This document shows, in pieces, positions 8,996 to 63,000 of a stretch of DNA of 64,000 bases. Both the position numbers and the translations under genes were made by a program. The notes below the pieces were generated by a model that ran no database searches, was not told the origin of the DNA, and worked only from the letters and a program-made list of their open reading frames with translations. The stretch's first letter is position 1. Every line of letters begins with the position of its first letter. This DNA comes from Bifidobacteriaceae bacterium (lineage in GTDB: Bacteria; Actinomycetota; Actinomycetes; Actinomycetales; Bifidobacteriaceae), in contig JALCQD010000002.1 in NCBI GenBank assembly GCA_022651005.1, positions 62,001 to 126,000 on the forward strand, written 5' to 3'.

Positions 8996-9063
8996 TTCGC
9001 TGTGCTTTGCGTCGAGGTAGGAAGCCGAAATTCGGTCCTTTCCGCGACGCAAAGCACAGCGAA
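8996..9063 (+). repeat. 19-bp perfect inverted repeat between argG and argH
   Basis: Arms TTCGCTGTGCTTTGCGTCG (8996-9014) and its exact complement (9045-9063) enclose 30 nt that contain a smaller dyad, CCGAA/TTCGG. There is no U tract after it, so it is unlikely to be a classical terminator. It sits 28 nt before the argH start. Confidence 0.85.
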
Positions 9064-47371: not shown

Positions 47372-48445
47372 ATGGCATCGATCGTACTGGCGCGTGGGAT
47401 ATCGGCGGTTCTCTTCCCTTCTGTGGGCTTCCTTCCCACGGCGGTAACGAGGAACGAGGTCTCGGACACAGAAGTGTCGGCCGAGAATTTCGCCGGATTG
47501 GTATTCATCGATCCTGAGACGGAGTCTTGGGACGTCTCGGTTTTCGACCGTGCAGTTCTGAGAGGCGACGGATTCTTCGAGGCCATCAGTGTGATCGATG
47601 GGAAGATTCCGGTGTCGCTCGATCTGCATTTGGAACGCTTGGCGACATCCGCCGCAGCGCTGGATATGCCGCGCCCCGACGTGGAAGCCTTCAAGACGGC
47701 GTGCATGGAGATGATTGCGCGGTACAACGGAGAACATGATGAGTCGGTGTACGGCCACCCGGCGCACGGCACTGCCTATGGTCACGATGATCTGGTGCAC
47801 ACGGACTCCATGCTGCGGATCGTCGTCTCGCGCGGCCTTGACTTTGGTACGGGAATGGGCAAGAAGCTTGGCGCGGGCATCCCCTCGGTATGGATGTACC
47901 TCGATGGCGAGGGCGATACGCACTCCACGGATCCTGTGACGATGGTGAGCCTGACCGCAGGTTACGATTCCACATCCTCCGCGCTGGCGCCGTGGCTGCT
48001 GCGCGGCGCGAAAACGCTGAGCTATGCCGTCAACATGGCGGCCGAGCGTGAGGCGCGGCGCAGGGGAATGACAGATGCCCTGTTCATCACGACAGACAAG
48101 TGTGTGTTGGAGTCTCCGTACGCGTCTGTGGTGGCGCGGTTTGGGAATACTCTGGTGACGCCCGATCCCGCCATCGGTGTGCTGCATGGCACGACGCAGC
48201 AGGAGTTGTTTGCATATGGGCGGCGGGTTGGTCTCAGCACACAGTACCGCGACGTGAGCGTGGCCGAACTCAAGCAGGCGGATGCGGCGTACCAGACGCG
48301 CGGGGGATGGGTGATTCCGGTGTCGAAGCTCGATACCGTGGATTTTGCGGTTGACACGGAATTCGTCGCGGCCGCCAATCATGCGCTCCATTATGAGCGA
48401 GAGGCGCAGGAGGAAGAACTGCTGAACGACGATTACGGGATTTAA
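47372..48445 (+). CDS. Class IV aminotransferase (aminodeoxychorismate lyase-like)
   Basis: A 357-aa fold-type IV PLP protein. The N-terminal part has VSVFDRAVLRGDGFFEAISV, typical for PabC/D-amino-acid aminotransferases. Lys214 in GAKTLSYAVNMAAEREARRRG is the predicted Schiff-base lysine, followed by DALFITTDKCVLESPYASV. It is ~60 residues longer than standard PabC, mainly before the lysine. A folate role (4-amino-4-deoxychorismate to p-aminobenzoate) or a branched-chain/D-amino-acid role are both possible. AAGGAG precedes the ATG. Confidence 0.85.
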   Translation: MASIVLARGISAVLFPSVGFLPTAVTRNEVSDTEVSAENFAGLVFIDPETESWDVSVFDRAVLRGDGFFEAISVIDGKIPVSLDLHLERLATSAAALDMPRPDVEAFKTACMEMIARYNGEHDESVYGHPAHGTAYGHDDLVHTDSMLRIVVSRGLDFGTGMGKKLGAGIPSVWMYLDGEGDTHSTDPVTMVSLTAGYDSTSSALAPWLLRGAKTLSYAVNMAAEREARRRGMTDALFITTDKCVLESPYASVVARFGNTLVTPDPAIGVLHGTTQQELFAYGRRVGLSTQYRDVSVAELKQADAAYQTRGGWVIPVSKLDTVDFAVDTEFVAAANHALHYEREAQEEELLNDDYGI

Positions 48446-48538
48446 AGCCTTCATGACCACGTGAAGTCGTGAATTCACATTCGACCACAGGGGCCCTAAT
48501 TTTCTGACCGCGTGAGCTTTTCCCGTCACACTAGAACC

Positions 48539-49303
48539 ATGACGATCGACGGCTTTGCGGCTCCTCCTTTGCCTCCCTGTGGAACAAGCGAGAGGCGTGC
48601 GTTGCGCGGCGTAGGCGGGCTGGGTGCGCCTGACGACGGGGACTCCTCTGTGATGCCCTTGAGAGAATTGGCCTCTGTTCGCGCGTCGGATTCCTCTGTA
48701 GGTATCAGAGGTGCTCTCAGTGGAGAGAAGAACGAGGGGCGCTCGCTCACCGGCCGGGCGTCTCGTGGTGCTCCGAGGCTGGCATTTTCTTCGTCCGCAG
48801 TTCTCGCCGCGTTGTTCGTGTTGGTGATTGCGGTGGCGGCTAGTGTGACTCTCTTGGTGATTCAGTCGCGTAATTTCAGTGTGATAGAAGCCGCGGGTAC
48901 TCGAATCGAAGGTATAACGTCGAGTGCGAGCAGTGGTGAAAAGGATTCTTCACGCAGCAGTGATGCTTCAGAAACTTCCAGTGCTCAAGAGAAGCAAAAA
49001 AGCGATATACAGCAAAAAGATGAAGCTGGTGGAGCTGCGAGCGAGAAGACGGCAGAGAAATCTCCCTCTGCAGAGAACAAGCCCACGGCGCAGACTTCTC
49101 CGCAGGATGTGCGCATCGACATCAACTCTGCAGATGCCACGCTGCTTGATACGGTGAAGGGGATCGGGCCTGCGACGGCTCAGAAAATCATCGATTACAG
49201 AACCCAGAATGGCAGGTTCGCTAGCGTTGATGCGTTAGTGGCAGTTCCGGGCATCGGTGCAAAAACGTTGGAATCGATGCGCTCTCAGCTGGTGGCACGA
49301 TGA
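48539..49303 (+). CDS. comEA: ComEA-family helix-hairpin-helix DNA-binding protein
   Basis: The protein (~254 aa) has a ~85-residue hydrophilic N-terminus, one membrane helix (SAVLAALFVLVIAVAASVTL) and a Ser/Lys/Glu-rich linker. It ends with a C-terminal HhH pair (INSADATLLDTVKGIGPATA, VDALVAVPGIGAKTLESM). ComEA binds incoming DNA at the membrane in competent bacteria. The SLBB domain found in many ComEA proteins is absent. No clear ribosome site; a GTG at 48512 is an alternative start. It overlaps comEC by ATGA. Confidence 0.85.
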   Translation: MTIDGFAAPPLPPCGTSERRALRGVGGLGAPDDGDSSVMPLRELASVRASDSSVGIRGALSGEKNEGRSLTGRASRGAPRLAFSSSAVLAALFVLVIAVAASVTLLVIQSRNFSVIEAAGTRIEGITSSASSGEKDSSRSSDASETSSAQEKQKSDIQQKDEAGGAASEKTAEKSPSAENKPTAQTSPQDVRIDINSADATLLDTVKGIGPATAQKIIDYRTQNGRFASVDALVAVPGIGAKTLESMRSQLVAR

Positions 49304-51081
49304 CGAGAGCGGAGATGGGCGAGTCAGGGCGAAGAGATTACAGGATGCTTCCTGCGGCGCTGTGTGTATGGGGAGTCTGTCTTCTTCCGCCGGTGCAAGA
49401 GTGGGGAAGTGCGTTATCGGGGAAAGCGATCATAGAGATTGCCGCTTTGGCGGGCGTCGTTGTTGCGGGAGCGGTAGGGGCCGTGTATTTCGCAGTGCAC
49501 CGCTTCCGGAGTGGCCTGCGATGGTGGACGCTGCATCTTCGGAGCTATGCGGGCCATGTCATCGTGATTTGTATGGCATGCTCCTGCGCTCACCTCAGCC
49601 TTGGACTTGCGCATGCAGCACTTTCCGCAGATGCCGCAAACGTTGACACGGCAATTCCCGCAACGCTTCTCTTTACCGTACAAACGCCCTCTGTTGCTGC
49701 CACCCTTCAGCGAGGCAGTGACTGCCAGTATCAGATTCGTATTGACAGCATCTGGCGAGGCAATCTTCAGGAACCATCTCGTGCACGGGCTTTTGTGTTC
49801 GCAACGTCGAAGCAGCCCGCGCGAAAGAGCGCTGTAAAAGTGCGAAATCCGTGCTCTCCTGTCGAATCTGGCCAGTACGCGGCGCGAGGAACCCTCGAGC
49901 CGGCAGAATTCGGCAGCGTACCCCTGTGGTTTACGTTGGACGAGGATACGGCGGGATCTCTCACGCAAGTAGCCCCGCCTTCTGCTGTGCGTTCTGCGGT
50001 GGCGCACATGCGTGTGGCCTTTCTGAACATGTGCCAGCGCAGTCTCAGTGAGCAAGGGAGAATCCTTGTTCCCGGCGTTACTATGGGTGTTCTCGGCCAG
50101 GAGACGATGATGATGAACGCGGGAGATGACGGGGCTGCAGGGAAACGCATCAAGGAGAATTTCAAGAAATCTGGAATTGTGCATTTACTGGCAGTGTCAG
50201 GTGGCCACTTCGTGTTGTTGGGAGAACTGGTGCGTCGGCTCATGGGAAGATGTCATATGCCGCGCGTGCCGACGGCGGTGGGTATTGGAGTCGCCTACGT
50301 CACGCTCTCCATGCTGATGTATCCCTCTGACTCGGTCTCTCGTGCTCTCGTCATGGGACTCATGATGTCGAGCGCAATGGTCATCGGGCGTCCCGCTCAG
50401 GCCATGAGCGCCTTGTGCTGGACGGTTTTGGGATGTCTGATTTTAGATCCTGGAATGGCAAGAAGCTTCGGCTTTGCGCTCTCGTGTGCTGCCGTAGCGG
50501 GTATTGTGCTTTTCAATGGAGTCATTCAGCGTGCGCTTATCTCCGGTCTCGGAATGGGTGCCGCTCATGTGAGGAGCTTCGTGAGAACCGCCGCACCTGG
50601 TCTCATTACTCTGGAACAGAGCGTTCCCAAATCCTTGCACGAGCGAGCTTCGCGTTGTGTTCCGTGGATTGCCGAGGCGGTTGCCGTGACCCTGAGCGCG
50701 CAGGTGTTCACCCTGCCCATTCAATTGCTCATGAGCACCACCATCCCGATGTGGAGCGTGTTCGCGAACATCTGCGTGGCTCCATTCGTCACGTTCTCCA
50801 CCTTCGCGGGTCTCGCAGCCCTCGCTACCGCCTGGGTGATTCCGCCGCTTGGCCTCGTGCTCGTGCATATGGCAAGTTGTGGCACCGCTGTCATGAGTGG
50901 TTTTGCAGAGTTTTTCGGAACCCTGTGTGGAGGAGCATGGGAGTCAAGTGTGAGCGGTGTCATCAGCTCATGCATCGTGGGCGTGGCGGAGGCTGTGGTG
51001 GCCGTTGCAGTGGCTGTGATCTCTCGCGGTGTCATCAAGAAGATTGGCCACAGAATCGCTCATGAGTGGGAGGCAATATGA
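49300..51081 (+). CDS. comEC: ComEC-like DNA-uptake channel protein (competence domain only)
   Basis: The 593-aa polytopic protein has N-terminal hydrophobic helices, a soluble OB-like segment with two or three cysteines (RGSDCQYQIRIDSIW), then the competence domain. The latter has the conserved GIVHLLAVSGGHF motif and a string of ~7 helices. The C-terminal metallo-beta-lactamase nuclease domain is missing, as in other actinobacterial members. Reading frame is intact. With ComEA upstream it forms a minimal uptake pair; no type IV pilus genes are in the window. Confidence 0.87.
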   Translation: MTRAEMGESGRRDYRMLPAALCVWGVCLLPPVQEWGSALSGKAIIEIAALAGVVVAGAVGAVYFAVHRFRSGLRWWTLHLRSYAGHVIVICMACSCAHLSLGLAHAALSADAANVDTAIPATLLFTVQTPSVAATLQRGSDCQYQIRIDSIWRGNLQEPSRARAFVFATSKQPARKSAVKVRNPCSPVESGQYAARGTLEPAEFGSVPLWFTLDEDTAGSLTQVAPPSAVRSAVAHMRVAFLNMCQRSLSEQGRILVPGVTMGVLGQETMMMNAGDDGAAGKRIKENFKKSGIVHLLAVSGGHFVLLGELVRRLMGRCHMPRVPTAVGIGVAYVTLSMLMYPSDSVSRALVMGLMMSSAMVIGRPAQAMSALCWTVLGCLILDPGMARSFGFALSCAAVAGIVLFNGVIQRALISGLGMGAAHVRSFVRTAAPGLITLEQSVPKSLHERASRCVPWIAEAVAVTLSAQVFTLPIQLLMSTTIPMWSVFANICVAPFVTFSTFAGLAALATAWVIPPLGLVLVHMASCGTAVMSGFAEFFGTLCGGAWESSVSGVISSCIVGVAEAVVAVAVAVISRGVIKKIGHRIAHEWEAI

Positions 51082-52127
51082 GAAATTTTGTCCACCGATT
51101 CGAGCACATTGAAGGCATGGCAACACCACGAGCAGCTACGAATCCTGCCACCGTCACGGTGGTGTTCGGCGGTGACGTCTATCTCAATCATCGCACGATG
51201 AAAACTCTGAAGAAGGCTGCCAGTGCAGCGCTTCCTGACGCCGAGATCATCGAGATGGACGGGTCAACTGCCGATTCGTATGCCTTTGACGAAGCGGTGA
51301 GCCCCTCCTTGCTCTCAAGCGCGTCAATCGTCATGATTCCAGATCTTCAAGACGTTGCCGACGATGTGATCGACGCCATGCAGCGCTATCTCAAGGAAAC
51401 GAACAAGGCTGCAAAAGCAGGTGCAGCCGAAGAGCCGACGAGCATTGTCATTGCATCCCACGACGGTTCCGTGAAGGGGAAGAAGCATGTCGACGCACTC
51501 AAAAAGGCCGGTGCGCACATCGAGACTCCAGACAAGCTTGCCAATGATCGCGCAAAACTGAATTTTGTGCGCGGGGAATTCCGCTCGTATGGTCGCACGG
51601 TACAGGAACCGGCAGCTCAACAATTGGTGGCGGTTCTTGGCGGACGCACAGCGGAGCTCGCCGCCATGTGCCAACAGCTCTGCTTTGACTTTGACGAGAA
51701 CCCAATGTCTCTTGCGACGGCGATGAATTACCTTGACGACGCCCCAGAGGTCACCGGCTTCGCGGTGGCAGATGCAGCGTTGCGGGGCAATCCTGCTCAG
51801 GCGGTCCTCAAATTGCGCCAGGCCATCAAGCGCGGAATGGAGCCCTTGGCGCTCGTGGGCGCAATAGCATCCACGCTCAGATCGATGGGTAAGGCGGCGG
51901 CGATTGCGGCCGGTAAGGCGAACGCGGCCGAGCTGCGCATGAATGGCTGGATTCTCACACGTGCCACGCAGCAGGTGCGAGGTTGGTCGTCGGAGGGCCT
52001 GGGTGCGTGCATCGAAGCGCTGGCACATGCCGATCAAGAGGCGAAATCCACTTCAGGTGACCCGGTTTTCGCGCTCGAGCAGGCGGTTGAGCTCATAGCG
52101 CGCCGGGGACGGCCTCTCGTGGCATAA
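51078..52127 (+). CDS. holA: DNA polymerase III subunit delta
   Basis: HolA opens the sliding clamp within the clamp loader. The 349-aa protein has the weakly conserved AAA+-like pattern: VTVVFGGDVYLNHRTMKTL at the N-terminus, SIVMIPDLQDV, and the C-terminal collar helices (VLKLRQAIKRGMEPLALVGA). The gene commonly follows comEC. GGGAGG precedes the ATG at 51078, which overlaps the comEC stop. A TTG or GTG further upstream is unlikely. Confidence 0.92.
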   Translation: MRNFVHRFEHIEGMATPRAATNPATVTVVFGGDVYLNHRTMKTLKKAASAALPDAEIIEMDGSTADSYAFDEAVSPSLLSSASIVMIPDLQDVADDVIDAMQRYLKETNKAAKAGAAEEPTSIVIASHDGSVKGKKHVDALKKAGAHIETPDKLANDRAKLNFVRGEFRSYGRTVQEPAAQQLVAVLGGRTAELAAMCQQLCFDFDENPMSLATAMNYLDDAPEVTGFAVADAALRGNPAQAVLKLRQAIKRGMEPLALVGAIASTLRSMGKAAAIAAGKANAAELRMNGWILTRATQQVRGWSSEGLGACIEALAHADQEAKSTSGDPVFALEQAVELIARRGRPLVA

Positions 52128-52231
52128 TCGCAGCGGAACAGATTTCAGCAGGAGACTCGGCACAGTGGGGAATAGGCGCGAGTGGGCGGCTCAGAATTGT
52201 CGAGATGGCGAGAAAGTGCGGATAAAGATAG

Positions 52232-52837
52232 ATGAGTGATGGCAATCAGGCAATAGTTGTGGAGGTGCCCACTTCGGATGCCATGCATCGTCTGGGTGCC
52301 GGACTCGCGCACGTTTTCGCTTCCGGTGACGTGGTGCTGTTGTCAGGGCCATTGGGTGCCGGTAAGACGACGCTCGCACAGGGCATTGGCAAGGGGCTGC
52401 AGATCAAGGAGCCCGTTGTGTCTCCCACTTTCACGATTGCTCGCGAACTCAATGGGCGCTTCTATGATGGCTCGCCGGCGCGCTTGGTGCACGTGGATGC
52501 CTATCGCATCGGTGGCGTGGAGCATGCGCCCGGTTCCGATGTTGCCACGGCTCTGCTCGATGAATTGGAATCGCTGGGATTGGACGAAGAGCTGGAGAAT
52601 CCCTCCGAGGGCACCGTGGTGCTCATGGAGTGGGGCGAACACATGGCCGGAATTTTGGCTGATGAGCGCTTGGAGATCAGCATCGATCGCTCGGTTGCGT
52701 TGTCGAAGGATCCAGGCACTGAACTCACTTCAGACGGCATGCGTCGGGTGAGATTCACGTTCGTTGGCCCCAGCTGGCTGGCGCGCAGAACACAGATTGA
52801 GACACAGTTAGAAGACGCGGTAAGGAGTTCACAATGA
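52232..52837 (+). CDS. tsaE: tRNA threonylcarbamoyladenosine biosynthesis ATPase TsaE
   Basis: TsaE is the ATPase that supports TsaB-TsaD in making t6A at position 37 of ANN-decoding tRNAs. The 201-aa protein has the P-loop GPLGAGKTT (39-47), the VVSPTFTIAREL switch and the VLMEWGE motif. An acidic loop near residue 105-125 (DELESLGLDEELENPSEG) enlarges it over the usual ~155 residues. It opens the tsaE-tsaB-rimI-tsaD operon, after a 104-bp gap without a visible terminator. Confidence 0.94.
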   Translation: MSDGNQAIVVEVPTSDAMHRLGAGLAHVFASGDVVLLSGPLGAGKTTLAQGIGKGLQIKEPVVSPTFTIARELNGRFYDGSPARLVHVDAYRIGGVEHAPGSDVATALLDELESLGLDEELENPSEGTVVLMEWGEHMAGILADERLEISIDRSVALSKDPGTELTSDGMRRVRFTFVGPSWLARRTQIETQLEDAVRSSQ

Positions 52838-53634
52838 GCAGTGGCGAGAGCACAGTTGGCGCGGCGGCACGGCACAATGGTCCGATTCTCGTCGTGGACA
52901 CCTCATTTGGCTTGACGATTGGAATCGTGGGCCACGAGCCGCTGCACGAGGCGGATTCGCGTCAGCACGTCGAGAAGATCGAGCCATATATTGCGCGCGC
53001 CATTGACGAGGCGGGGCTGAGGCCGTCGGATATTGCGACAGTGGTGGTAGGAACTGGCCCCGCTCCCTTCACGGGATTGCGCGCCGGAATTGTCTCTGCC
53101 AAGGCCTTTGCTTTCGCCACGGGTGCCGAGTTGCTCGGCCAGGACGTTTTAGAGCCTCAGGCGTGGTGGGATTGGGAACGGCGGGGTTCTCAATCCGTTT
53201 CGGTTCCGCGCCTTGTACTCACACTCAACGATGCGCGCCGCAAACAGCTGTATTTTCAAGTCTTCGAGGTTGTCAACGACACTGTGACGCCATTGAGTGA
53301 CATGGACATTCAGTATCCGCAGACAATCGTGGACAGGGTCACAGAAATTGCCGTGGCTCATCCGGGCGTTCTGCTCGACATTCTGGGTCATGGCGCAGAA
53401 AAATATGCGGATATGTGGGAGAGCTTGCGCCAGTCGGGAATTGGTGTGAATGCGGTGGACGACGGCTCGGTCATCCATGCTGATGGATCTCGCGGCCTGG
53501 AAATCTTTGCTCTCACCGCTCTGCGGAAGCGGGAAAAAGGCCTGCCGACTCCCACTGATCCCTTGTACCTGCGCCGCCCAGACGTGAGCCTTCCGCCGCC
53601 TTTGAAGCCGGTGCTTAAAACGGAGCAGAAGTGA
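52834..53634 (+). CDS. tsaB: tRNA threonylcarbamoyladenosine biosynthesis protein TsaB
   Basis: TsaB is the catalytically inactive ASKHA partner of TsaD. The 266-aa protein has ILVVDTSFGLTIGIV at the N-terminus, then VVVGTGPAPFTGLRAGIVSAKAFAF, which is the family signature. It lacks the metal-binding His pair of TsaD, as expected. ATGA overlap with tsaE and a GTGA overlap with rimI indicate coupled translation. Confidence 0.94.
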   Translation: MSSGESTVGAAARHNGPILVVDTSFGLTIGIVGHEPLHEADSRQHVEKIEPYIARAIDEAGLRPSDIATVVVGTGPAPFTGLRAGIVSAKAFAFATGAELLGQDVLEPQAWWDWERRGSQSVSVPRLVLTLNDARRKQLYFQVFEVVNDTVTPLSDMDIQYPQTIVDRVTEIAVAHPGVLLDILGHGAEKYADMWESLRQSGIGVNAVDDGSVIHADGSRGLEIFALTALRKREKGLPTPTDPLYLRRPDVSLPPPLKPVLKTEQK

Positions 53635-54140
53635 TTCGGCTCATGCAGGCGCGCGATCTTGACACGGTGGCACGCCTCGAAGGCGAACTTTTCACCTCCG
53701 CGTCATGGAGTCGTGCGGCGCTGGAACAGGAACTCACAGGCCCTGGCCGAACCTACCTCGTATGGACGGGAGGTTTGCCAAACGCACCCCAGAATGAGGC
53801 CAATGCGACTCCGTGCGACGCGGTTCTTGGGTATGCAGGATTGTGGTGTGCTGAACCGGGTGCTGACGCGGAAATCATGACGATCGGCGTCGATAAGCGC
53901 GCCCAGCGCTCAGGTATTGGCCGCGCACTGTTGCAAGCGCTTGTGGGAGCGGCGCACCAGCAAAGGGCGCGTCGGCTCCTGCTTGAAGTGCGCGTCGACA
54001 ATGAGCCCGCCAAAAACATGTACCGCAAGTTTGGCTTCCAGCCGATGGGATTGAGAAAACACTACTATCAGCCAGAGGACGTTGACGCAGTGACGATGAG
54101 TTTGAATCTTGAGGAATCCATGGAGGCAAATCATGAGTGA
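53631..54140 (+). CDS. rimI: Ribosomal-protein-alanine N-acetyltransferase RimI-like
   Basis: A 169-aa GNAT protein. RimI acetylates the N-terminal Ala of ribosomal protein S18; close relatives also act on other N-termini. The acetyl-CoA site is visible in AEIMTIGVDKRAQRSGIGRALLQAL, and the C-terminal VRVDNEPAKNMYRKFGFQPMGLRKHYY is typical. The GTG start overlaps the tsaB stop, and a GGAGC lies upstream. Its place between tsaB and tsaD is common in actinobacteria. Confidence 0.92.
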   Translation: MIRLMQARDLDTVARLEGELFTSASWSRAALEQELTGPGRTYLVWTGGLPNAPQNEANATPCDAVLGYAGLWCAEPGADAEIMTIGVDKRAQRSGIGRALLQALVGAAHQQRARRLLLEVRVDNEPAKNMYRKFGFQPMGLRKHYYQPEDVDAVTMSLNLEESMEANHE

Positions 54141-55179
54141 GCCGGTAGTGCTCGGAATCGAATCCACCTGTGATGAGACGGCGGCGGCGATTGTTCGCGG
54201 CCGTGAGCTTGTGTCCAATGTGGTGGCGTCCTCCATGGACGAGCATGCGCGCTACGGCGGTGTCATTCCGGAGATTGCCTCGCGCGCCCATGCCGAGGCG
54301 TTCGTTCCGGTGGTATCGCAGGCGCTCGCCGACGCACACATGGAGTTGTCTGACGTCGATGCCATTGCAGTCTCCGCAGGTCCGGGACTTGCGGGTTGCT
54401 TGGCTGTGGGTGTGTCTGGAGCGAAAGCGCTTGCGTACGCGGCCGGTAAGCCGTTGTATGGCATCAACCACGTGATTGGCCACATTGCCGTCACGCAGCT
54501 CCAGTTCGGCGCTTTTCCCACGGATACGTTGGCGCTGATCGTCTCCGGTGGGCATACCTCGCTGCTGCACGTCACTGACGTGGCGCGGCACGTGGACGTT
54601 GTGGGCACCACGCTCGACGACGCGGCGGGGGAATGTTTTGACAAAATCGCACGGCTCTTGGGCTTTCCTTACCCCGGGGGACCTCACATCGATCGGCATG
54701 CGCGGTTGGGCAATCCGAAGGCACTGCGCGTTCCTCAGGGCCTTACGCAGGGGCGCTCAGGCCATGCGCATCCGTACGATTTCAGCTTTTCCGGTGTCAA
54801 AACAGCTGTGGCGCGCTGGATTGAGGCGCAGCAGGCAGAGGGCAACGAGATTCCGGTGGACGACGTCTGCGCGTCCCTCGCAAATTCCGTTGCGGATGTT
54901 TTGAGCGAAAAAGCCGGGCGCGCCTGTGAGAAGTTTGGTTCCGATACGTTGATTGTGGGCGGTGGGTTCTCCGCCAACTCGCAGCTGCGTGACATGCTTG
55001 TGCTTAAAGGCAAACGGCACGGCATCGAGATGCGTATTCCTCAGTTGAAGCTGTGCACGGACAATGGCGCGATGGTGGCCATGTTGGGCGTCAATCTCGT
55101 GGAGGCAGGAGTGAAGCCAAGTTCTCCTGACTTCTCCATTGATTCCGCCATGCCGATGGACCAGATTGTGATGGAATAG
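54133..55179 (+). CDS. tsaD: tRNA N6-adenosine threonylcarbamoyltransferase
   Basis: TsaD transfers the threonylcarbamoyl group to A37 of tRNA. The 348-aa ASKHA enzyme has LGIESTCDETAAAIV, the metal ligands His113 and His117 in GINHVIGHIAV, and DDAAGECFDKIARLLG. The ATG at 54133 follows GGAGG and overlaps rimI by 8 nt. The stop is directly followed by an inverted copy of the tRNA-Arg 3' half (55180-55222), so the transcript of this tRNA-modifying gene ends in antisense-oriented tRNA sequence. Confidence 0.96.
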   Translation: MSEPVVLGIESTCDETAAAIVRGRELVSNVVASSMDEHARYGGVIPEIASRAHAEAFVPVVSQALADAHMELSDVDAIAVSAGPGLAGCLAVGVSGAKALAYAAGKPLYGINHVIGHIAVTQLQFGAFPTDTLALIVSGGHTSLLHVTDVARHVDVVGTTLDDAAGECFDKIARLLGFPYPGGPHIDRHARLGNPKALRVPQGLTQGRSGHAHPYDFSFSGVKTAVARWIEAQQAEGNEIPVDDVCASLANSVADVLSEKAGRACEKFGSDTLIVGGGFSANSQLRDMLVLKGKRHGIEMRIPQLKLCTDNGAMVAMLGVNLVEAGVKPSSPDFSIDSAMPMDQIVME

Positions 55180-55222
55180 GCGCCAGACAGGATTCGAACC
55201 TGCAACCTGCTGATCCGTAGTC
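55180..55222 (-). pseudogene. Inverted 3' half of tRNA-Arg (tRNA fragment)
   Basis: These 43 nt are the exact reverse complement of tRNA-Arg positions 55346-55388, from the anticodon stem to the last acceptor base. The D arm, 5' acceptor strand, discriminator and CCA are missing, so it cannot be a tRNA. Identity stops sharply at both ends. Confidence 0.92.
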
Positions 55223-55315
55223 GGTCGGTTGCGACACCCCGATTTGCGCAATACGACGTGCTGAGTTAAGGTATTCAAGTTGCTTGGAGAGGTAAGAAGC
55301 CCCATCAGGCAATAT

Positions 55316-55392
55316 GCGCCAGTAGCCCAACGGATTAGAGCAGCTGACTACGGATCAGCAGGTTGCAGGTTCGAATCCTGTCTGGCGCACCA
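55316..55392 (+). tRNA. tRNA-Arg (anticodon ACG), CCA encoded
   Basis: Acceptor GCGCCAG pairs with CTGGCGC. The anticodon stem GCTGA/TCAGC encloses CTACGGA, giving ACG (wobble A to be deaminated by TadA). The T arm is AGGTTCGAATCCT. The discriminator A is followed by a genomic CCA (55390-55392). A terminator follows. Confidence 0.96.
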
Positions 55393-55398
55393 GAGTAG

Positions 55399-55433
55399 AA
55401 GCCCTTGAGCCGCAACGGTTCAGGGGCTTTTTC
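55399..55433 (+). terminator. Terminator after tRNA-Arg
   Basis: AAGCCCTTGAGCCG pairs with CGGTTCAGGGGCTT around CAA, with a short T run after. Confidence 0.9.
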
Positions 55434-55592
55434 GTATCTTGATGGATACGGTGACACCAGCATCCTTCCTCCCCGAAAACCCTGAAAACTGAGATATTCT
55501 GGCACAACGACCGCGTTGAAAACTGTAGGGAAAGCGCGGATGGAGAGAATTCAGAGAGACGAGAATTCGGGAGTCGGGAGAGAACGAACACG

Positions 55593-56108
55593 ATGTCCAG
55601 ATCCAAAACCCTGATCGTGATGGGCAATGCTTTTGCTGCATTGGAGACGCTTGTCGCCGGTTTCATTATCTTCGGTCTTCAGGTGCCGGGAATCTATGCC
55701 ACTGCATACAGCGAAGGCAATCTCACCGATGCGTACTCCGCCATTCTCATTACTGGCATTCCCTTCGTGCTCTGCCTTGTCGGTCAGATCGTCAATTGGG
55801 TTGGTCTCACCAAAATCGACGGCATCAATCGTCAACGCTGGACAATGTGGTTTCTTGTCATCGGAATCTTGACGCTCGCCGTCAATCCCATCTCTGGCAT
55901 TTTGTACATCGTAGCTTTCACCTATGCAAACCGCGAACAAAGATCCCCAAGTCCCGCTGGAGTAAACGGCAGTCTTGGCAACGCCACACTCGCAAAAATG
56001 CCGCGTATCAACGACTGGACGCTTCAATCAAATCTGGAGGATTTACGCGACTGGCGCGTTCTTTCGGATACCGAGGCGATGAGTGTACGGAACGAGTTGC
56101 AGATATGA
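55593..56108 (+). CDS. Hypothetical membrane protein upstream of the XpaC/TelA genes
   Basis: A 171-aa protein with three or four membrane helices (IVMGNAFAALETLVAGFIIF, ILITGIPFVLCLVGQIVNWV, WFLVIGILTLAVNPISGILY) and a ~55-residue cytoplasmic tail with a Trp-containing motif (INDWTLQSNLEDLRDWRVL). I do not recognise it. The stop overlaps the next gene by ATGA, so it is probably part of the same functional unit as the XpaC-like and TelA proteins. Confidence 0.8.
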   Translation: MSRSKTLIVMGNAFAALETLVAGFIIFGLQVPGIYATAYSEGNLTDAYSAILITGIPFVLCLVGQIVNWVGLTKIDGINRQRWTMWFLVIGILTLAVNPISGILYIVAFTYANREQRSPSPAGVNGSLGNATLAKMPRINDWTLQSNLEDLRDWRVLSDTEAMSVRNELQI

Positions 56109-57871
56109 GGGGATCTAGCGGAAAGGGCACCCCTCGATATCGCGCGCCAAAGCTTCCCACGGCCAAGAAAAACGCACGCAATAAGCTGCTCATCTCTCTT
56201 CTCATTGTGGCGGGCGTGGTTGTGCTCGGCTCTCTGCGGCTGTTCGCAGGGCTGGACACTGCCGGCCAGATTTACGCAACCATCTTCATTCTCCTCTGTG
56301 CCGTTGCCTACCAAGTGGTATCGCGGAGCGTGCGCGACGCAAATACCACGCGAAAATACGATCCCGATGCGCTGTATGAATCGGAAGTGACTGCTCTTCG
56401 TCAGGAGGGCAAGGAGTATTCGCAGGAGCAGGTGGCGCGCTTCGTGAAGGCGCAGTTCACCCAAAGTGACGTGGAGACGTTCCAGAAGAATCTCACCGAG
56501 GCAAGCGAAACTGTGCTCACTTGGGAGTTCGCAGTGCGCCAGTCAGGGTATCTCACGCTCATAGAGGCGGCGACGCACGGTCTCGATTCCGCTAAGAAAA
56601 TTATTGACGACATCCGGCAGCATCCGCGGAAGATGCTGAAATACGGCGACTTCTTATACACAGCGCTTCCAAACGTGTCCACAGTGAGTGTTGAGTTCTT
56701 AGATCTGACTCAGAACCAGAGGGAGGCACAGCAGGCTACTCTGACTCTCATCAAGAAGCAGTCTGAGGAAATTGCGCAGATGTATGAGTCCGTGCAGCTG
56801 GCGGACGTTCAGGAGGCGGTGAGGGAGTCAGGCGCGTCTTTTGTCGGGAGCAGCATGGCGGAATCCTTGGCGCACATGAAGTCGCAGACCGAGGCCGAAG
56901 AGACGCCCGTGGATGCCGAGTTTACCAAGGTGCAGCAGACGCTTGCCGATGCGAACGCTGACGGCACTCCCTTCGGCGCGCTGAAGTCAGGGCCGTCTCA
57001 GTCGCGAGATGAGCTTCATCAGCAAGAGCGGACGGTCGATACCCTCGCCGTGGCTCTCGTGCTCGGGGGTCTGGGAGCCGTATGGACTCCCTCGTTCTTT
57101 GCGATTTTTTGTGGTGTTGCTGCGATCGCGGCAATGCTTTTTGCTGTGTTTTCCAGCTTCCGTGTTCTGCGCGTCTTCACGTGGTTGATGGTTGCGAGCG
57201 TCGTGGTGCTTTCCGCTGTGACCTTTGTGGGATATGCCCAGCAGGTTCAACGTAATGCCGTTGCTCACAGTCTGGGGAAGGGCGATGAGACTCGTCTGAC
57301 AGTTGAGGAACAGATGGCGGCAGTGAGCACAGACAAGGCCAAGGCGTGGACCATGGAAGATTTTATGGCCCTGGATATCAATGACACCAGCGGGTACGGA
57401 GGGACAGGCCTTCTGGACGTTCTCAGAGTCCACGGTGCTCCGATTGGTGGTGTGTGGGGAGAGATTGGCGGGACTCGGCAGATGGAGTATCCGCAGAATC
57501 CACGTACCTATAACTTCACGGAGGCGAACGTTGATTTCAGCGTGGTCGACGGCAATCTCATCGACAAGATGGAGGACGGTCTCGGCACTCAGCTTCCTTT
57601 TAATTGGACATCGGAGGAATGCGATTCCTATGCGACTCTGGGGACGGCAAAGAGCTGGAAAAACGCGGTATCTTTTGCCCAGATCACTGCGAAACATGGA
57701 GATCCCAGCCATGTGGAAGTCACGCGGCAACAGGACAACTCGGTGAGTTTTTACACGACGTATTACAGTGATATCGATTTTGATGACAGCACCAAAACCG
57801 TGAGTCTTGGGTATACCAAAACTGCCCCCGACGACTACCGCTTGACATCATGCAGCACGTCGAATTTCTAA
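56105..57871 (+). CDS. XpaC-like membrane protein with C-terminal extension
   Basis: The 588-aa protein starts with two membrane helices (~28-72), then a helical region (KYDPDALYESEVTALRQEG to about residue 260) that resembles the XpaC / 5-bromo-4-chloroindolyl phosphate hydrolysis family, usual partner of TelA. The second half is additional: three more helices (~312-378) and an extracytoplasmic domain with two similar segments (LLDVLRVHGAPIGGVWGE and AQITAKHGDPSHVEV), reminding me of SmpA/BLIP-type repeats. Such a fusion is not typical of XpaC. The start is the ATG at 56105 overlapping the upstream stop; the open frame reaches 55796. Confidence 0.78.
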   Translation: MRGSSGKGTPRYRAPKLPTAKKNARNKLLISLLIVAGVVVLGSLRLFAGLDTAGQIYATIFILLCAVAYQVVSRSVRDANTTRKYDPDALYESEVTALRQEGKEYSQEQVARFVKAQFTQSDVETFQKNLTEASETVLTWEFAVRQSGYLTLIEAATHGLDSAKKIIDDIRQHPRKMLKYGDFLYTALPNVSTVSVEFLDLTQNQREAQQATLTLIKKQSEEIAQMYESVQLADVQEAVRESGASFVGSSMAESLAHMKSQTEAEETPVDAEFTKVQQTLADANADGTPFGALKSGPSQSRDELHQQERTVDTLAVALVLGGLGAVWTPSFFAIFCGVAAIAAMLFAVFSSFRVLRVFTWLMVASVVVLSAVTFVGYAQQVQRNAVAHSLGKGDETRLTVEEQMAAVSTDKAKAWTMEDFMALDINDTSGYGGTGLLDVLRVHGAPIGGVWGEIGGTRQMEYPQNPRTYNFTEANVDFSVVDGNLIDKMEDGLGTQLPFNWTSEECDSYATLGTAKSWKNAVSFAQITAKHGDPSHVEVTRQQDNSVSFYTTYYSDIDFDDSTKTVSLGYTKTAPDDYRLTSCSTSNF

Positions 57872-57902
57872 AATAAACCTCAATAATTTTCAAGGAGAGA
57901 AG

Positions 57903-59063
57903 ATGGAGAACACGGAGCAGCAGAGTAGCGGTCGTAGTGGGGACGAGGCCATGGCCGAGGTTCCGCAGCAGGCCCCAACGAGTGCATTGTCGAGTCTAGA
58001 TGCGGCTGACGCAGCAAGAGCGCACGAGCTTGCGACAACGTTGAAGCAGGAGAAACAGGAGTCCATCTCTGCGTACGGCCACGACGCTCAGAAGGACATC
58101 ACTGAATTCTCGAGCCAGGTGCTCTCCAAAGTTGCGTCGAAGGATTTGGGCGAGGTGGGCACCACACTCACCGACCTCATGTATAACCTCAAGAGCTCCG
58201 ATCCTTCGGAGCTCATGGAGAAAGACAATCTCCTCGAGAAACTGTTCAAGCGCGCAAAGAAGTCGATTTTCGACATCACGGCGAAGTATCAGAAGATCGA
58301 TGCCAGCGTTGACAAGATTTCCGCTCGTCTCGATGGTCAGAGCCAGCAGCTGAGTGACGACAACACGATGCTCGACGAGCTTTACTCGCGGAACTTCGAA
58401 TTCTTCAAGCAGCTCAACGTGTATATAGCGGGAGCGGAAATCAAGTTGGCGGCGCTGGACGCAGTAGATATTCCTGCGGCTCGCGCAGCCGTTGCCGCCG
58501 GTTCGGATCTCATGGCGGCGCAGCAGCTCTCAGATCTCACTGCTTTCCAAAACCGTCTCGAGAAGCGCAAGTACGACCTCGAGCTCACACGGCAGATCAC
58601 GATTCATCAGGCTCCGCAGATTCGCTTGATTCAGAACACGAACCGTGAGCTCACCGACAAGATTTCCTCATCCATCAATACCGCCATTCCGTTGTGGAAG
58701 AATCAGCTGACTGTGGCGTTGACTCTGCTTAATCAGCGCGAGGCACTTGCCAGTCAGCGCATGGTTTCGGATACCACGAATGCGCTGCTGCAGAAGAATT
58801 CTGAGATGCTCAAGACCTCTGCCATCGCAGCTGCGAATGAGAATGAACGCGGCGTGGTCGATCTCGAGTCGCTGAAGAAGACGCAGGCTGACCTCATCGA
58901 CACCATCGAACAGACACTTCAGATTCAGGCGGCAGGCGCGGCCAAGCGCAAGCAGTCCGAAGCGGAACTGACACAGCTTGAGGCTGATTTGAAGGCCAAA
59001 CTTGTGGAGATCAGCGGGGGAGCGGAGTCCGGATCCGCAAGTGCGAGCGCAGCAACGGAGTAA
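57903..59063 (+). CDS. TelA/KlaA-family toxic anion resistance protein
   Basis: A 386-aa helical cytoplasmic protein of the TelA family (tellurite resistance, also cell-envelope stress). Recognisable parts are KLFKRAKKSIFDITAKYQKI, QLNVYIAGAEIKL, LEKRKYDLELTRQITIHQAP, QIRLIQNTNRELTDKI, and the IPLWKNQLTVALTL stretch. N- and C-terminal ends are Ala/Ser/Glu-rich. AAGGAGAG precedes the ATG. It follows the XpaC-like gene by 31 nt, and this pairing is the known genomic partner arrangement. Confidence 0.9.
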   Translation: MENTEQQSSGRSGDEAMAEVPQQAPTSALSSLDAADAARAHELATTLKQEKQESISAYGHDAQKDITEFSSQVLSKVASKDLGEVGTTLTDLMYNLKSSDPSELMEKDNLLEKLFKRAKKSIFDITAKYQKIDASVDKISARLDGQSQQLSDDNTMLDELYSRNFEFFKQLNVYIAGAEIKLAALDAVDIPAARAAVAAGSDLMAAQQLSDLTAFQNRLEKRKYDLELTRQITIHQAPQIRLIQNTNRELTDKISSSINTAIPLWKNQLTVALTLLNQREALASQRMVSDTTNALLQKNSEMLKTSAIAAANENERGVVDLESLKKTQADLIDTIEQTLQIQAAGAAKRKQSEAELTQLEADLKAKLVEISGGAESGSASASAATE

Positions 59064-59194
59064 CGCCCCGCGGAGCGAGTGGCAGCAGACCCTCTGACGT
59101 GCAATTTTCCGCGCAGAGCACGCGATTGTGCGCTGCGCGACTCCTCGGGTAAAATCATCTGCGGCAGTACGCACACCGAGGGGACTGATTCGCC

Positions 59195-60448
59195 ATGACA
59201 TCGCCGAAAACCGATGCCGAACCCACCGCACGCTCCCTTTCCCGTATTCTTCGTGGTATCGCCTATTCTGATCGCGCCTCGGGCTTGCTCATGATGGCGT
59301 GCGCCGCGCTCGGTCTGCTGCTCATGAACATACCGCTGACGGCCGCGCCGCTCCATCACTTCAGCGAAATCAGCGTCGGCATTCCGTGGACGAACATCGT
59401 TCTGCCCATCAGCGAGTGGGCGCAAGACGGTCTGCTGACTGTATTCTTCCTCGTCGTGGGGCTGGATCTCAAACAGGAACTGACAACCGGCTCGCTCGCC
59501 AATCCGCGCAAGGCCGCCGTGCCCATGCTGGCAGCCGTCGGTGGCATGATTGCACCGCCGCTCGTCTTCCTCGCCGTCACTGGAATCTTCCACGCCAATG
59601 GTGCTGTTCCCGATTTTTCGGTGATCGAACGCGGCTGGGCCGTTCCCACGGCCACTGATATCGCCTTCTCTCTTGCCGTGCTGGCGCTGTTTGCCCGGGG
59701 ACTTCCGGGTGCCATCCGTGCCTTCCTCATGACGCTGGCCACGGTGGACGATCTCCTGGGCATCCTGCTCATCGCCGTGCTCTTCAGCTCATTCGGTCAG
59801 TGGTACTGGTTCGTGGGGCTGGTGGCGTGTGCGGTGGCGTGGTATTTCCTGTGCAGACTACGTAAGGTGCCGTGGGTGCTCGTGGGAGCCTTGGGGCTTC
59901 TCACGTGGGTCATGATGTTCGAAGCGGGCATTCATCCCACGCTGTCGGGCGTGTTGGTGGGTCTGCTGACGCCTTCGCGTGAGATGCATGGCGAGGCCAC
60001 TCCGCGCGCCGAACGCTATCACGACCGACTTGTACCCGTTTCCGCTCTCATCGCGCTGCCGATCTTCGCATTCTTCGCAACGGGCATCAGCTTGCACGGC
60101 ATGAGTGTGGCCGTTCTGGCATCGCCGCTGGTGCTGGGGCTGGTGCTGGCGTTGGTAGTGGGCAAGCCGCTGGGCATCATGGCCGTGTCATGGGCGGCAG
60201 TGCACTTTGGAAGGCTCAAGCTCGCCGATGGCCTGCGCGTGCGTGATCTCATCGGGCTGGCGTGCGCCTGTGGCATCGGGTTCACCGTATCGTTCCTCAT
60301 CGCGTCGCTTGCGTTCAATGGGTCAATTTTCACTGGAGAGGCGCGGCTCGCGGTGTTGTTGGGATCGCTTATTTCAGCGGCGATTGCAGGCATCGTGTTC
60401 TCGTGGCAGTCGCGAGTTTTTGCGTCGCGCCGCAATCTGCAGCAATGA
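59195..60448 (+). CDS. nhaA: Na+/H+ antiporter NhaA
   Basis: NhaA exports Na+ (or Li+) in exchange for protons and controls cytoplasmic pH. The 417-aa protein has about 11-12 membrane helices. The transport aspartates are in the LATVDDLLGILLIAV segment (equivalent to Asp163/164 of E. coli), with the PTATDIAFSLAVLALF assembly motif before it. The ATG at 59195 has GAGGGGA about 11 nt upstream. No NhaR-type regulator is adjacent. Confidence 0.94.
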   Translation: MTSPKTDAEPTARSLSRILRGIAYSDRASGLLMMACAALGLLLMNIPLTAAPLHHFSEISVGIPWTNIVLPISEWAQDGLLTVFFLVVGLDLKQELTTGSLANPRKAAVPMLAAVGGMIAPPLVFLAVTGIFHANGAVPDFSVIERGWAVPTATDIAFSLAVLALFARGLPGAIRAFLMTLATVDDLLGILLIAVLFSSFGQWYWFVGLVACAVAWYFLCRLRKVPWVLVGALGLLTWVMMFEAGIHPTLSGVLVGLLTPSREMHGEATPRAERYHDRLVPVSALIALPIFAFFATGISLHGMSVAVLASPLVLGLVLALVVGKPLGIMAVSWAAVHFGRLKLADGLRVRDLIGLACACGIGFTVSFLIASLAFNGSIFTGEARLAVLLGSLISAAIAGIVFSWQSRVFASRRNLQQ

Positions 60449-60488
60449 TTCGCGCTTCACGGCAATAATCGTGGGCGATAATGGAACC

Positions 60489-61265
60489 ATGAGTCAAGAA
60501 GATACACAAGCAAAGAGTGCGCAGGGACTCGACCAGACGTATCACCGCGGTCCCGTGATCCTGCGCGGCAAGATGATTCCGGAGGACACCACTTCCGGGA
60601 ACCTTCTGAACGAGGAAGAAGATACCGACTGGCTCCACATGGATCCGTGGCGCGTGCTGCGCATCCAGGCGGAATTCGTGGATGGTTTCGGGGCGCTCGC
60701 GGAGCTGGGGCATGCGGTCACCATTTTCGGTTCTGCGCGGACTGCTGCCACTGATCAGTATTACAAGGCTGCCGAAAAAATGGGGCGCATGCTGGCGGAA
60801 CGCAATACCGCCGTAATTACGGGAGGTGGCCCCGGCATCATGGAGGCAGCCAACAAGGGTGCGGCGCTGGCCGGCGGCACGTCCGTTGGACTGGGAATAG
60901 AACTTCCCAATGAACAGGGTCTCAACGAATACGTGAATCTTGGTCTCATTCTGCGCTACTTCTTCGTGCGCAAGACCATGTTTGTGAAGTATTCTTCAGG
61001 AGCCATCGTGTGCCCGGGCGGCTTCGGGACCATGGACGAGCTCTTTGAAGTGCTCACCCTCGTGCAGACGCACAAAGTGAAGCACATGCCCATGGTGCTG
61101 TTCGGTTCTGAATACTGGCGCGGAATGTTTGACTGGATTCACGGCACGTTGGAGCCGCACCACATGATCTCGCCGCTGGATCCGAATCTGATGTTTGTCA
61201 CCGATGACCCGGATGAGGCTGTTGCCACGGTGCTCGGTGATATTGAGCCAGGGCGCATCGACTGA
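60489..61265 (+). CDS. LOG-family protein (TIGR00730, cytokinin riboside monophosphate phosphoribohydrolase-like)
   Basis: A 258-aa Rossmann-fold protein. The two defining motifs are GGGPGIMEAANKGA (112-125) and PGGFGTMDE (176-184), with the catalytic Arg/Glu. LOG proteins cleave ribose monophosphate from nucleotides; bacterial functions vary (nucleotide 5'-monophosphate nucleosidase). No good ribosome site lies before the ATG; the transcript may be leaderless or start at a GTG at 60471. It is convergent with the O-methyltransferase and separated by a bidirectional terminator. Confidence 0.9.
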   Translation: MSQEDTQAKSAQGLDQTYHRGPVILRGKMIPEDTTSGNLLNEEEDTDWLHMDPWRVLRIQAEFVDGFGALAELGHAVTIFGSARTAATDQYYKAAEKMGRMLAERNTAVITGGGPGIMEAANKGAALAGGTSVGLGIELPNEQGLNEYVNLGLILRYFFVRKTMFVKYSSGAIVCPGGFGTMDELFEVLTLVQTHKVKHMPMVLFGSEYWRGMFDWIHGTLEPHHMISPLDPNLMFVTDDPDEAVATVLGDIEPGRID

Positions 61266-61274
61266 AGAGCACGC

Positions 61275-61328
61275 AATAAAGCGCATTGGAGTGGATTGGG
61301 TATAACGGTCCACCCGAATGCGCTTTCA
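61275..61328. terminator. Bidirectional terminator between convergent genes
   Basis: AAAGCGCATT (61278-61287) pairs with AATGCGCTTT (61317-61326), with TGGA/TCCA further inside. AATAAA and CTTTC flank it. Confidence 0.85.
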
Positions 61329-61357
61329 CCTCGGATGTCGGATGAGAGTATGGGGCT

Positions 61358-62026
61358 TTACTTGCGCAGAGCGAGCGCGATGCCGGTTCCCACGGGAATC
61401 AGTGACGTGGTGAATTCCTCATCGTCCTTGAGCTCGTCGAGCACGCCGCGCAGCGCCACCGCCTTGTCGCTGCGGTCAGCGGGATTGGTGAGGCCGCCGT
61501 CGGGATTGTGATGCAGAGCCAGCGCGTCGGTGACGATGAGCGCGCCGCCCTTGCGCAGGAGTCTTGCCGCTGAGGCGTAAGCGGGCTGATAGTTGCTTGC
61601 CTCGCCTGTAATCACCATGACGTCGTAGTCGTCGGCGTTGAGCTTGCTGAGGTACTCATCCACGGACGCGTTGACAACGCGCAGCTTGGTCTTCATGTGA
61701 TCCTGAACCCTGCCGAATGTGGCACGGATGATGTCGGCTCCCTTTGCCGTTGAATCAACGACGGTGAGGATGCCCTCGCCGCTCAGCGCCTCGATGAGAC
61801 GCTCGGTTTCTACGAGTGAACCAGTGCCGAGCAGGATAACCGATTCTGCGTTCACGCTCTGTGCCATGACGCTCAGGAAGCGTGCCTGTGCGGCAGAGCC
61901 CTGGCGGAATCCAGCGTCGGCGCCGCGGCGACGGGTGTCCTTGAGGAGATCATTTTCGCCCGATAGCGATTCCTTCTCAATGAATTGCCAAGCCTTTGCG
62001 GTGTTCTCGAAGTCTGTGTTGTTCAT
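61358..62026 (-). CDS. O-methyltransferase family protein
   Basis: A 222-aa SAM-dependent enzyme of the catechol O-methyltransferase-like class 3. The SAM site is in SVILLGTGSLVETERLIEAL, with the acid in LTVVDSTAKGADIIRATF; the metal-binding part is VITGEASNYQPAY and ALIVTDALAL. The lysine/aspartate set for metal coordination seems incomplete, so activity is uncertain. The ATG at 62026 follows GTGAGGAT. Actinobacterial homologs (e.g. Rv1220c type) are of unknown substrate. It follows sdhB by 5 nt on the same strand. Confidence 0.85.
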   Translation of the reverse strand: MNNTDFENTAKAWQFIEKESLSGENDLLKDTRRRGADAGFRQGSAAQARFLSVMAQSVNAESVILLGTGSLVETERLIEALSGEGILTVVDSTAKGADIIRATFGRVQDHMKTKLRVVNASVDEYLSKLNADDYDVMVITGEASNYQPAYASAARLLRKGGALIVTDALALHHNPDGGLTNPADRSDKAVALRGVLDELKDDEEFTTSLIPVGTGIALALRK

Positions 62027-62031
62027 GATCC

Positions 62032-63000
62032 TCACTTTACAGCGCTGTGTGGCGCAACCCGGCCACGATTTTCCTTGATGGCCTGCATGATTTTCCATAT
62101 GGCGCCAGACACGTCGATGCCGCGTGGACAGCGTTGTGTGCAGAAGCGCAGGCCCTTGCATGGCCAGATGCCAGCGGGTGCGGCGCCGTTGGAGGAGCTG
62201 GCCGTGTCGATGGGGTCGTTCGCCGTGTGGTCGAGGGCAGCGAGGCGTTGCGCGCGAGACTGCGGGTCGTCACGTGAGTCGAAGATGAAGCGTCCCGCCG
62301 CCACGGCCGCAGCGGGGCCCACGAATGGCGTGCCGTCAACGTAGATGGGGCAGGCTCCTTCGCAGACGCCGCACGCGATGCAGTTGGTGAGTTGGTCGAA
62401 GGCCTCGAGCTCATCTGGGTGCTGGAGGTATTCGAACACATTGATGGCACCGCTTGGAGTGGTGCGCAGTGCGTCTGACGCGCGCAGGTAGGGTTCCAGC
62501 CGACGGATCTGGTCGAGCATGGGGTTAAGGTTCACGATGAGATCGCGTACCGGTGAGAAGGCGGGAAGCGGGGCGAGCGTAATAACGCTGATACCATTCG
62601 CCTGAGCTTCCGCGTCTTTTTGCACGTCACTGATTTTGGTGAGGCAGAGAAGACGAGGGATTCCGTCGATGGACACTGCGTCTGATCCGCACATGCCGTG
62701 GCCGCAGGAGTAACGGAAGGCGAGGCTGGGATCCTGGGTGCGCTTGATGAGCAGCAGACAGTCCAGCAAGCTCGTGTGCGCTGGGACGGTGATGCGATAG
62801 TCCTGCTGCCACGATGCGTGGCCATCGAAACGGTGAATTCTCACGATCACCGTGGTTTGACTGGTATCGGCTGGGGTGACGGTGCTCGCGCCAGTGACGG
62901 CATCGGGGGCAACGGCTGTGGCAGTGATATCCACTGAGGATTTGGCACTCATGGGCGCCGTATGCCTGAATTGAGCGCGATGAGGAGGTAACGCTGCCAT
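62032..63000 (-). CDS. sdhB: Succinate dehydrogenase / fumarate reductase iron-sulfur subunit
   Basis: The 322-aa iron-sulfur subunit transfers electrons between the flavoprotein and quinone or another carrier. The [2Fe-2S] motif is SCGHGMCGSD...C (an Asp at the third position, as in E. coli SdhB), [4Fe-4S] is CIACGVCEGACP, and a third Cys set is in PCKGLRFCTQRCPRG. Start and sdhA stop form TGATG, with AGGAGG 7 nt upstream, so translation is coupled. An N-terminal extension of ~45 residues precedes VIVRIHRFDG. Membrane anchor genes are not visible here. Confidence 0.93.
   Translation of the reverse strand: MAALPPHRAQFRHTAPMSAKSSVDITATAVAPDAVTGASTVTPADTSQTTVIVRIHRFDGHASWQQDYRITVPAHTSLLDCLLLIKRTQDPSLAFRYSCGHGMCGSDAVSIDGIPRLLCLTKISDVQKDAEAQANGISVITLAPLPAFSPVRDLIVNLNPMLDQIRRLEPYLRASDALRTTPSGAINVFEYLQHPDELEAFDQLTNCIACGVCEGACPIYVDGTPFVGPAAAVAAGRFIFDSRDDPQSRAQRLAALDHTANDPIDTASSSNGAAPAGIWPCKGLRFCTQRCPRGIDVSGAIWKIMQAIKENRGRVAPHSAVK

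Follow-up and report, generated by a model that had tools for sequence, protein, structure and literature searches.

Short-range template switching during replication has been described as a maker of perfect hairpins, as the available part of PMC8794818 sets out, and the available part of PMC7954356 counts the switch-point order 1-4-3-2 among the two majority patterns, which produce single inverted repeats. The same portion of PMC7954356 records that local switches are observed in prokaryotes too, where they typically perfect an existing near-perfect repeat. Repeats at tRNA genes are also known from integrated elements; the accessible text of PMC3218068 reports that tRNA-Arg genes of Streptomyces and Frankia hold elements with direct repeats. 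The open-access literature, as far as its text was at hand, holds both template-switch and att work, and no inverted copy of a tRNA half of the kind described here was recognised in it. At the locus analysed here such a copy lies immediately behind tsaD, and it was probably made by a recent short-range template switch of the inverted-repeat-making type during replication, with little or no effect on fitness.

The inverted copy and its surroundings

The window (the whole 64-kb stretch of DNA analysed) carries two arms, 55180–55222 and 55346–55388, that are reverse complements of each other at every position (43/43, 100%) and are separated by a spacer of 123 nt. The right arm lies in the gene for tRNA-Arg(ACG), the sole gene with that anticodon among the genome's 50 identified tRNA genes, and the left arm is an inverted copy of bases 31–73 of its 77. 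The 43-bp inverted copy of the tRNA-Arg 3' half proposed by the first-pass annotation is thus real, and its first base, 55180, directly follows the tsaD stop codon. The further proposal that the copy runs exactly from the anticodon stem to the last acceptor base was right about one end: the copy ends at base 73, the last paired acceptor base, leaving out the discriminator A and CCA. At its other end, base 31, it starts inside the anticodon stem, which is no structural border.

The features of the locus are listed below. The comparison within the genus covered three genomes, that of the window (G000) and those of two congeners (G001 and G002); relatives closer than these two were sought and none was found. 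The nearest named relatives of its TsaD place the window's genome in the Bifidobacteriaceae.

54133–55179, plus strand: tsaD (t6A synthesis), an open reading frame with its stop TAG at 55177–55179; orthologous proteins 94% (G001) and 90% (G002) identical
55180–55222, minus strand: inverted copy of tRNA-Arg(ACG) bases 31–73 of 77, by sequence match; G001 and G002 without it
55231–55249, plus strand: conserved promoter-side block GCGACACCCCGATTTGCGC, identical in G001
55244–55249, plus strand: probable −35, TTGCGC, inside the block GCGACACCCCGATTTGCGC, from the three-genome comparison
55267–55272, plus strand: probable −10, TAAGGT, 17 nt past the −35, our own reading of the three-genome comparison
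55279–55315, plus strand: tRNA-Arg 5' leader with a hairpin separated from the tRNA by 2 nt, by folding; near-identical in G001 and G002
55316–55392, plus strand: tRNA-Arg(ACG), by tRNA prediction
55346–55388, plus strand: source arm within the tRNA, anticodon stem to last paired acceptor base, by sequence match
55398–55430, plus strand: hairpin and T run after the tRNA, a probable terminator, by RNA folding

When 55100–55450 was searched against its own genome (E 0.001), the 43-mer was found at these two places only, and one further match, partial and of 76% identity, was found on contig C1 at tRNA-Arg(TCT). A scan of the window for perfect arms of at least 16 nt with spacers of at most 400 nt gave two inverted repeats, of which the present one has the longer arms. 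The other, at 8996–9063, has 19-bp arms and a 30-bp spacer and lies between two plus-strand open reading frames. By our own estimate the likelihood of 43 exact bases arising by chance is negligible.

The tRNA-Arg gene probably has its own promoter between the arms. A consensus promoter scan found no promoter for this gene, and the elements listed above were read from the alignment of the three genomes, in which the counterpart of the −10 stands in the same place as TAATCT in G001 and TATTCT in G002. A pattern scan of 55000–55600 listed no terminator and so missed the probable one at 55398–55430. Pairing between leader and terminator (AAGCCCC with GGGGCTT) was considered and discarded; it is possible in the window, but by eye G001 and G002 do not preserve it.

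The region upstream of the tRNA showed regularities of its own. Leaders of tRNA-Arg(ACG) genes in the family, including the one in the window and those at loci L015 (G001) and L016 (G002), begin with GTTG and carry a hairpin that adjoins the tRNA. We read 68 leaders, dropped six without GTTG (five tandem second copies and one from Aeriscardovia) and kept 46 distinct sequences; exactly two unpaired nucleotides separate hairpin and tRNA in 32/46, and one to three do so in 44/46. The mean stem value was 5.35 with real partners and 4.84 with swapped ones (0 of 1000 shuffles as good), uncorrected for relatedness. Across 48 tRNA genes of the window's own genome (window, L132–L161 and L165–L184), the 30 nt before the tRNA hold a hairpin with z < −2 in 10 cases, compared with 4/48 for control stretches 300 nt further up, so that short hairpins are commoner directly before tRNAs (rank test p 0.004, with simple shuffles). 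The motif CGACAC, found in the window at 55232–55237, occurs in the 100 nt upstream of 11/48 tRNA genes of this genome and in 38/949 controls (binomial p 2e-6), in some cases with TTGC shortly after it. Blocks resembling GCGACAC..CCG..TTGC stand before tRNA-Arg in many of the relatives compared, as seen by eye and uncounted, and CGACAC is possibly a promoter element shared by tRNA genes of the family. These hairpin leaders and the CGACAC block may merit more attention than the inverted copy itself.

The locus in congeners and in the family

Both congeners have tsaD followed by a plus-strand tRNA-Arg gene, and neither has the inverted copy (0/2). The copy looks like a scar, as the earlier description had suggested. 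The gap from the tsaD stop to the GCGACACCCC block is of similar length, 44 nt in G001 and 51 nt here, and the sequence of the G001 gap does not resemble the copy (z 1.06, matched by 168 of 1000 shuffles). The corresponding interval of G002, between tsaD and tRNA-Arg, holds a GNAT gene. The neighbouring sequences are intact: tsaD is open and aligns to its end with the congeners, the flanks outside the proposed switch points given below are unchanged, and promoter and leader (55231–55315) match G001 at 78/85 positions, with 55272–55315 identical at 44/44 positions in G001 and at 41/44 in G002. Since the G001 gap is unrelated but the adjoining promoter and leader are so well kept, a dispensable gap looks to have been replaced. 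Gap length and lack of similarity suggest replacement of the gap, not insertion into it. In G001 an open reading frame of 122 aa (L015 4807–5175) directly follows tRNA-Arg; its product is presumably RhuM-like, and it is perhaps the remnant of an inserted element.

We extended the comparison to 140 distinct tRNA contexts (50 from the window's genome, 4 from G001 and G002 and 86 from other loci of the family), searching each stretch with exact 16-nt seeds and leaving out copies that overlap another predicted tRNA; 57 of the 205 loci had no predicted tRNA. An inverted partial tRNA copy (exact match of at least 16 nt) occurred in 1/140, the present locus, and because the 86 family contexts consist of 63 tRNA-Arg and 23 tRNA-Asn genes, this count does not measure the frequency for other tRNAs. 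The survey gave two other partial copies, both direct: the att repeat of G002 described below, and a 23-bp copy of the 3' end of tRNA-Ala(CGC) lying 87 bp upstream of that gene (L140 1392–1414, on G000:C3), which is possibly an old att site or a decayed tRNA. The identical arrangement in relatives that would have favoured a conserved function was accordingly seen in 0/2 congeners and in 0 of the other 139 contexts.

The tRNA gene behind tsaD varies within the family. In Bifidobacterium, tRNA-Asn lies downstream of tsaD at 21 of 24 loci, and two of the remaining three are cut off by a contig end shortly past tsaD. Two minus-strand tRNA-Arg(ACG) genes stand between tsaD and nhaA in Pseudoscardovia suis, UBA2724 and SUG1663, and a single one in Alloscardovia omnicolens; at the Aeriscardovia loci L070 and L099 the tRNA-Arg gene is on the plus strand. 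The tRNA is on the minus strand at L063, L065, L072 and L073 (tRNA-Arg) and at L055 (tRNA-Asn), and minus-strand genes in several relatives suggest that the tRNA behind tsaD has switched strand within the family. The locus is thus of some wider use, with a tRNA on either strand, doubled in some loci and bearing an element in G002. The first-pass annotation had thought it notable that the copy lies at a tRNA-modification gene. TsaD makes t6A on tRNAs that decode ANN codons, and tRNA-Arg(ACG) reads CGN, so the proximity is probably incidental.

Alternative origins and possible functions

The explanation given with the first description of the copy was that a tRNA-integrating element may have left it as an att core after integration, inversion and deletion. 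The gene does serve as an attachment site in the genus: in G002 (contig C1, L016 2641–10329) a 7.6-kb element, with genes for a tyrosine integrase (PF00589, Phage_integrase, E 5.7e-27), an HTH_17 protein and an AAA_25 protein, lies between tRNA-Arg and a direct repeat. Relatives had been named as the place to look for such an element or an intact locus, and an element is there, in the same tRNA, but its borders, orientation and side are unlike those of the copy. The G002 att repeat is direct and downstream, and its 48 bp (40 bp in the tRNA and 8 bp beyond) begin at tRNA base 37 and end 8 nt downstream of the gene, whereas the copy spans bases 31–73 and stops before the discriminator and CCA. 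A direct downstream repeat of the tRNA 3' end is what integration would lead one to expect; the copy is inverted and upstream, beside the promoter, and neither integration nor excision would produce it directly. The promoter block and leader beside it are orthologous to those of G001, and several independent rearrangements would be required. There is a precedent for an inversion after prophage integration, in which about 179 kb separate the full gene from a partial tRNA on the other strand (PMC9897764, in its available part). The window's genome has five integrase (PF00589) matches, all elsewhere than in the window, and four of them (L127–L130) resemble the G002 integrase at 25–42% identity over their best pieces, a likeness that makes a related enzyme possible. 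Element genes other than integrase near the copy were assessed from the list of open reading frames for 48000–64000 alone. Neither the junction nor the 40-bp core had an exact match in viral contigs (0 for each). All told, we regard an origin by integration as unlikely.

Twelve phage records match as a conceivable phage source, under tRNA-Arg or tRNA-Met features or in unannotated sequence and each over at most 24% of the query, and we set them aside. Integrase matches also occur within about 1 kb of the genes for tRNA-Leu(CAG) and tRNA-Ser(GGA) (G000:C3:159421–159956 and G000:C1:650131–651617; L173 and L177), so that elements may sit in further tRNA genes of this genome.

The strand changes in the family raise the question whether the copy is what survives of another tRNA-Arg gene, on the minus strand, that has lost its 5' half to decay. 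Minus-strand tRNA-Arg(ACG) genes between tsaD and nhaA in the four taxa named above speak for such a relic, as does a sub-threshold Rfam tRNA match at 55179–55249 on the minus strand (21.5 bits against a cutoff of 29; E 0.088 / 0.039), which has no equivalent in G001. But the putative 5' half in that match is the tRNA-Arg promoter block read backwards, and the same block is present in G001 without the copy, which disfavours a minus-strand pseudogene; we take the weak match, made of copy plus reversed promoter, to be a coincidence. ARAGORN calls no tRNA at the copy, neither congener has a trace of one, and an old relic would not stay identical at 43/43 positions and then stop sharply, all of which makes this origin very unlikely. 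That the copy is an artefact of assembly or amplification is, in our judgement, extremely unlikely. Amplified DNA is known to yield short inverted chimeras, and one could have been assembled here, but the contig is 658 kb long and the copy about 117 kb from its start, the flanking sequence gives a clean alignment with G001, and only a chimera that dominated the consensus could explain the copy.

The very long hairpin foreseen from the two arms is borne out by prediction, RNA from 55150–55435 folding as a full duplex at −158 kcal/mol (z −12.91, matched by none of 200 shuffles), and read-through from tsaD might in this way pair the copy with tRNA-Arg and mark the RNA for RNase III or dampen tRNA-Arg. 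The lack of a listed terminator between 55000 and 55600 would allow such read-through, weakly, as the same scan missed the probable terminator after the tRNA. Against this, the low fold energy is a trivial result of the repeat, the counts in congeners and tRNA contexts show no conservation, and the tRNA gene has a probable promoter of its own between the arms, so we hold a functional hairpin or antisense role to be highly improbable. Inversion across the arms would give a full-length minus-strand tRNA-Arg whose discriminator base is C, not A, and whose gene does not encode CCA. Promoter and tRNA could be flipped together by recombination, or by a G002-type integrase, in a reversible alternation between a good version of tRNA-Arg(ACG) and a poor one, and this could be a route by which the tRNA changes strand in the family. 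If true, the inverted arms would make a single-copy and presumably essential tRNA gene invertible, an idea to which we give almost no credence. No function of the copy is indicated.

A probable template switch and its known counterparts

A template switch of the kind preferred here would need one event. Synthesis would leave its template while the gap between tsaD and tRNA-Arg is being copied, perhaps stalled at a gap hairpin of the type in G001, which is predicted to be stable (z −2.72; 2 of 200 shuffles as good). The polymerase would then move about 124 bp, to the other strand or the nascent one, copy 43 bases of the 3' part of tRNA-Arg there and return, and the gap between the tsaD stop and the tRNA promoter would be replaced by the reverse complement of that part of the tRNA. 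The switch points would be 1 (55179), 4 (55223), 3 (55346) and 2 (55388), which is the order 1-4-3-2. Selection would set the outer limits of such an event, at the tsaD stop and just short of the promoter block, because damage to tsaD or to the sole tRNA-Arg(ACG) gene identified would not be tolerated; these borders call for no special mechanism. The first base past each junction mismatches the flank of the source (G versus T on the left, G versus A on the right), and these mismatches give no sign of priming by microhomology, which is not obligatory in the four-point model.

The age of the event can be gauged against tsaD, in which 63/189 fourfold sites agree between G000 and G001 and 79/180 between G000 and G002. 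At a Jukes-Cantor distance of 1.65, which is near saturation and rough, the probability that a 43-mer free of constraint remains perfect through one tenth of the branch is about 0.03. The 43-mer is still perfect though the fourfold sites have strongly diverged, which suggests that the copy is young and the event recent, unless selection or conversion keeps the arms identical.

Taken together, we judge the copy to be a real but ordinary mutational scar of an already known kind. The locus is a clear bacterial candidate for a single copying slip that builds, out of a tRNA gene, a perfect inverted repeat of 43 bp, and also for how a template-switch scar can pass for an att remnant. With the partial tRNAs of integrative elements, as described in the available part of PMC9897764, it has in common a partial 3' tRNA copy near an intact gene; those copies are typically direct and at the far end of the element, whereas this one is inverted, upstream, element-free and differently bordered. 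With the quasipalindrome mutations of E. coli, in the portion of PMC7202029 available, it would share a bacterial replication template switch between inverted sequences, but those occur at pre-existing imperfect repeats, and no older near-perfect repeat was seen at this locus in G001 or G002. The closest counterparts are the short-range template switches treated in the accessible parts of PMC7954356 and PMC8794818, in which a local reverse-complement copy takes the place of a neighbouring stretch and one step can yield a perfect inverted repeat; the event here would likewise replace its gap and follow the order 1-4-3-2. Theirs are from great ape genomes and RNA genes, mainly rRNA, whereas the source here is a bacterial tRNA and no microhomology was seen at the junctions.
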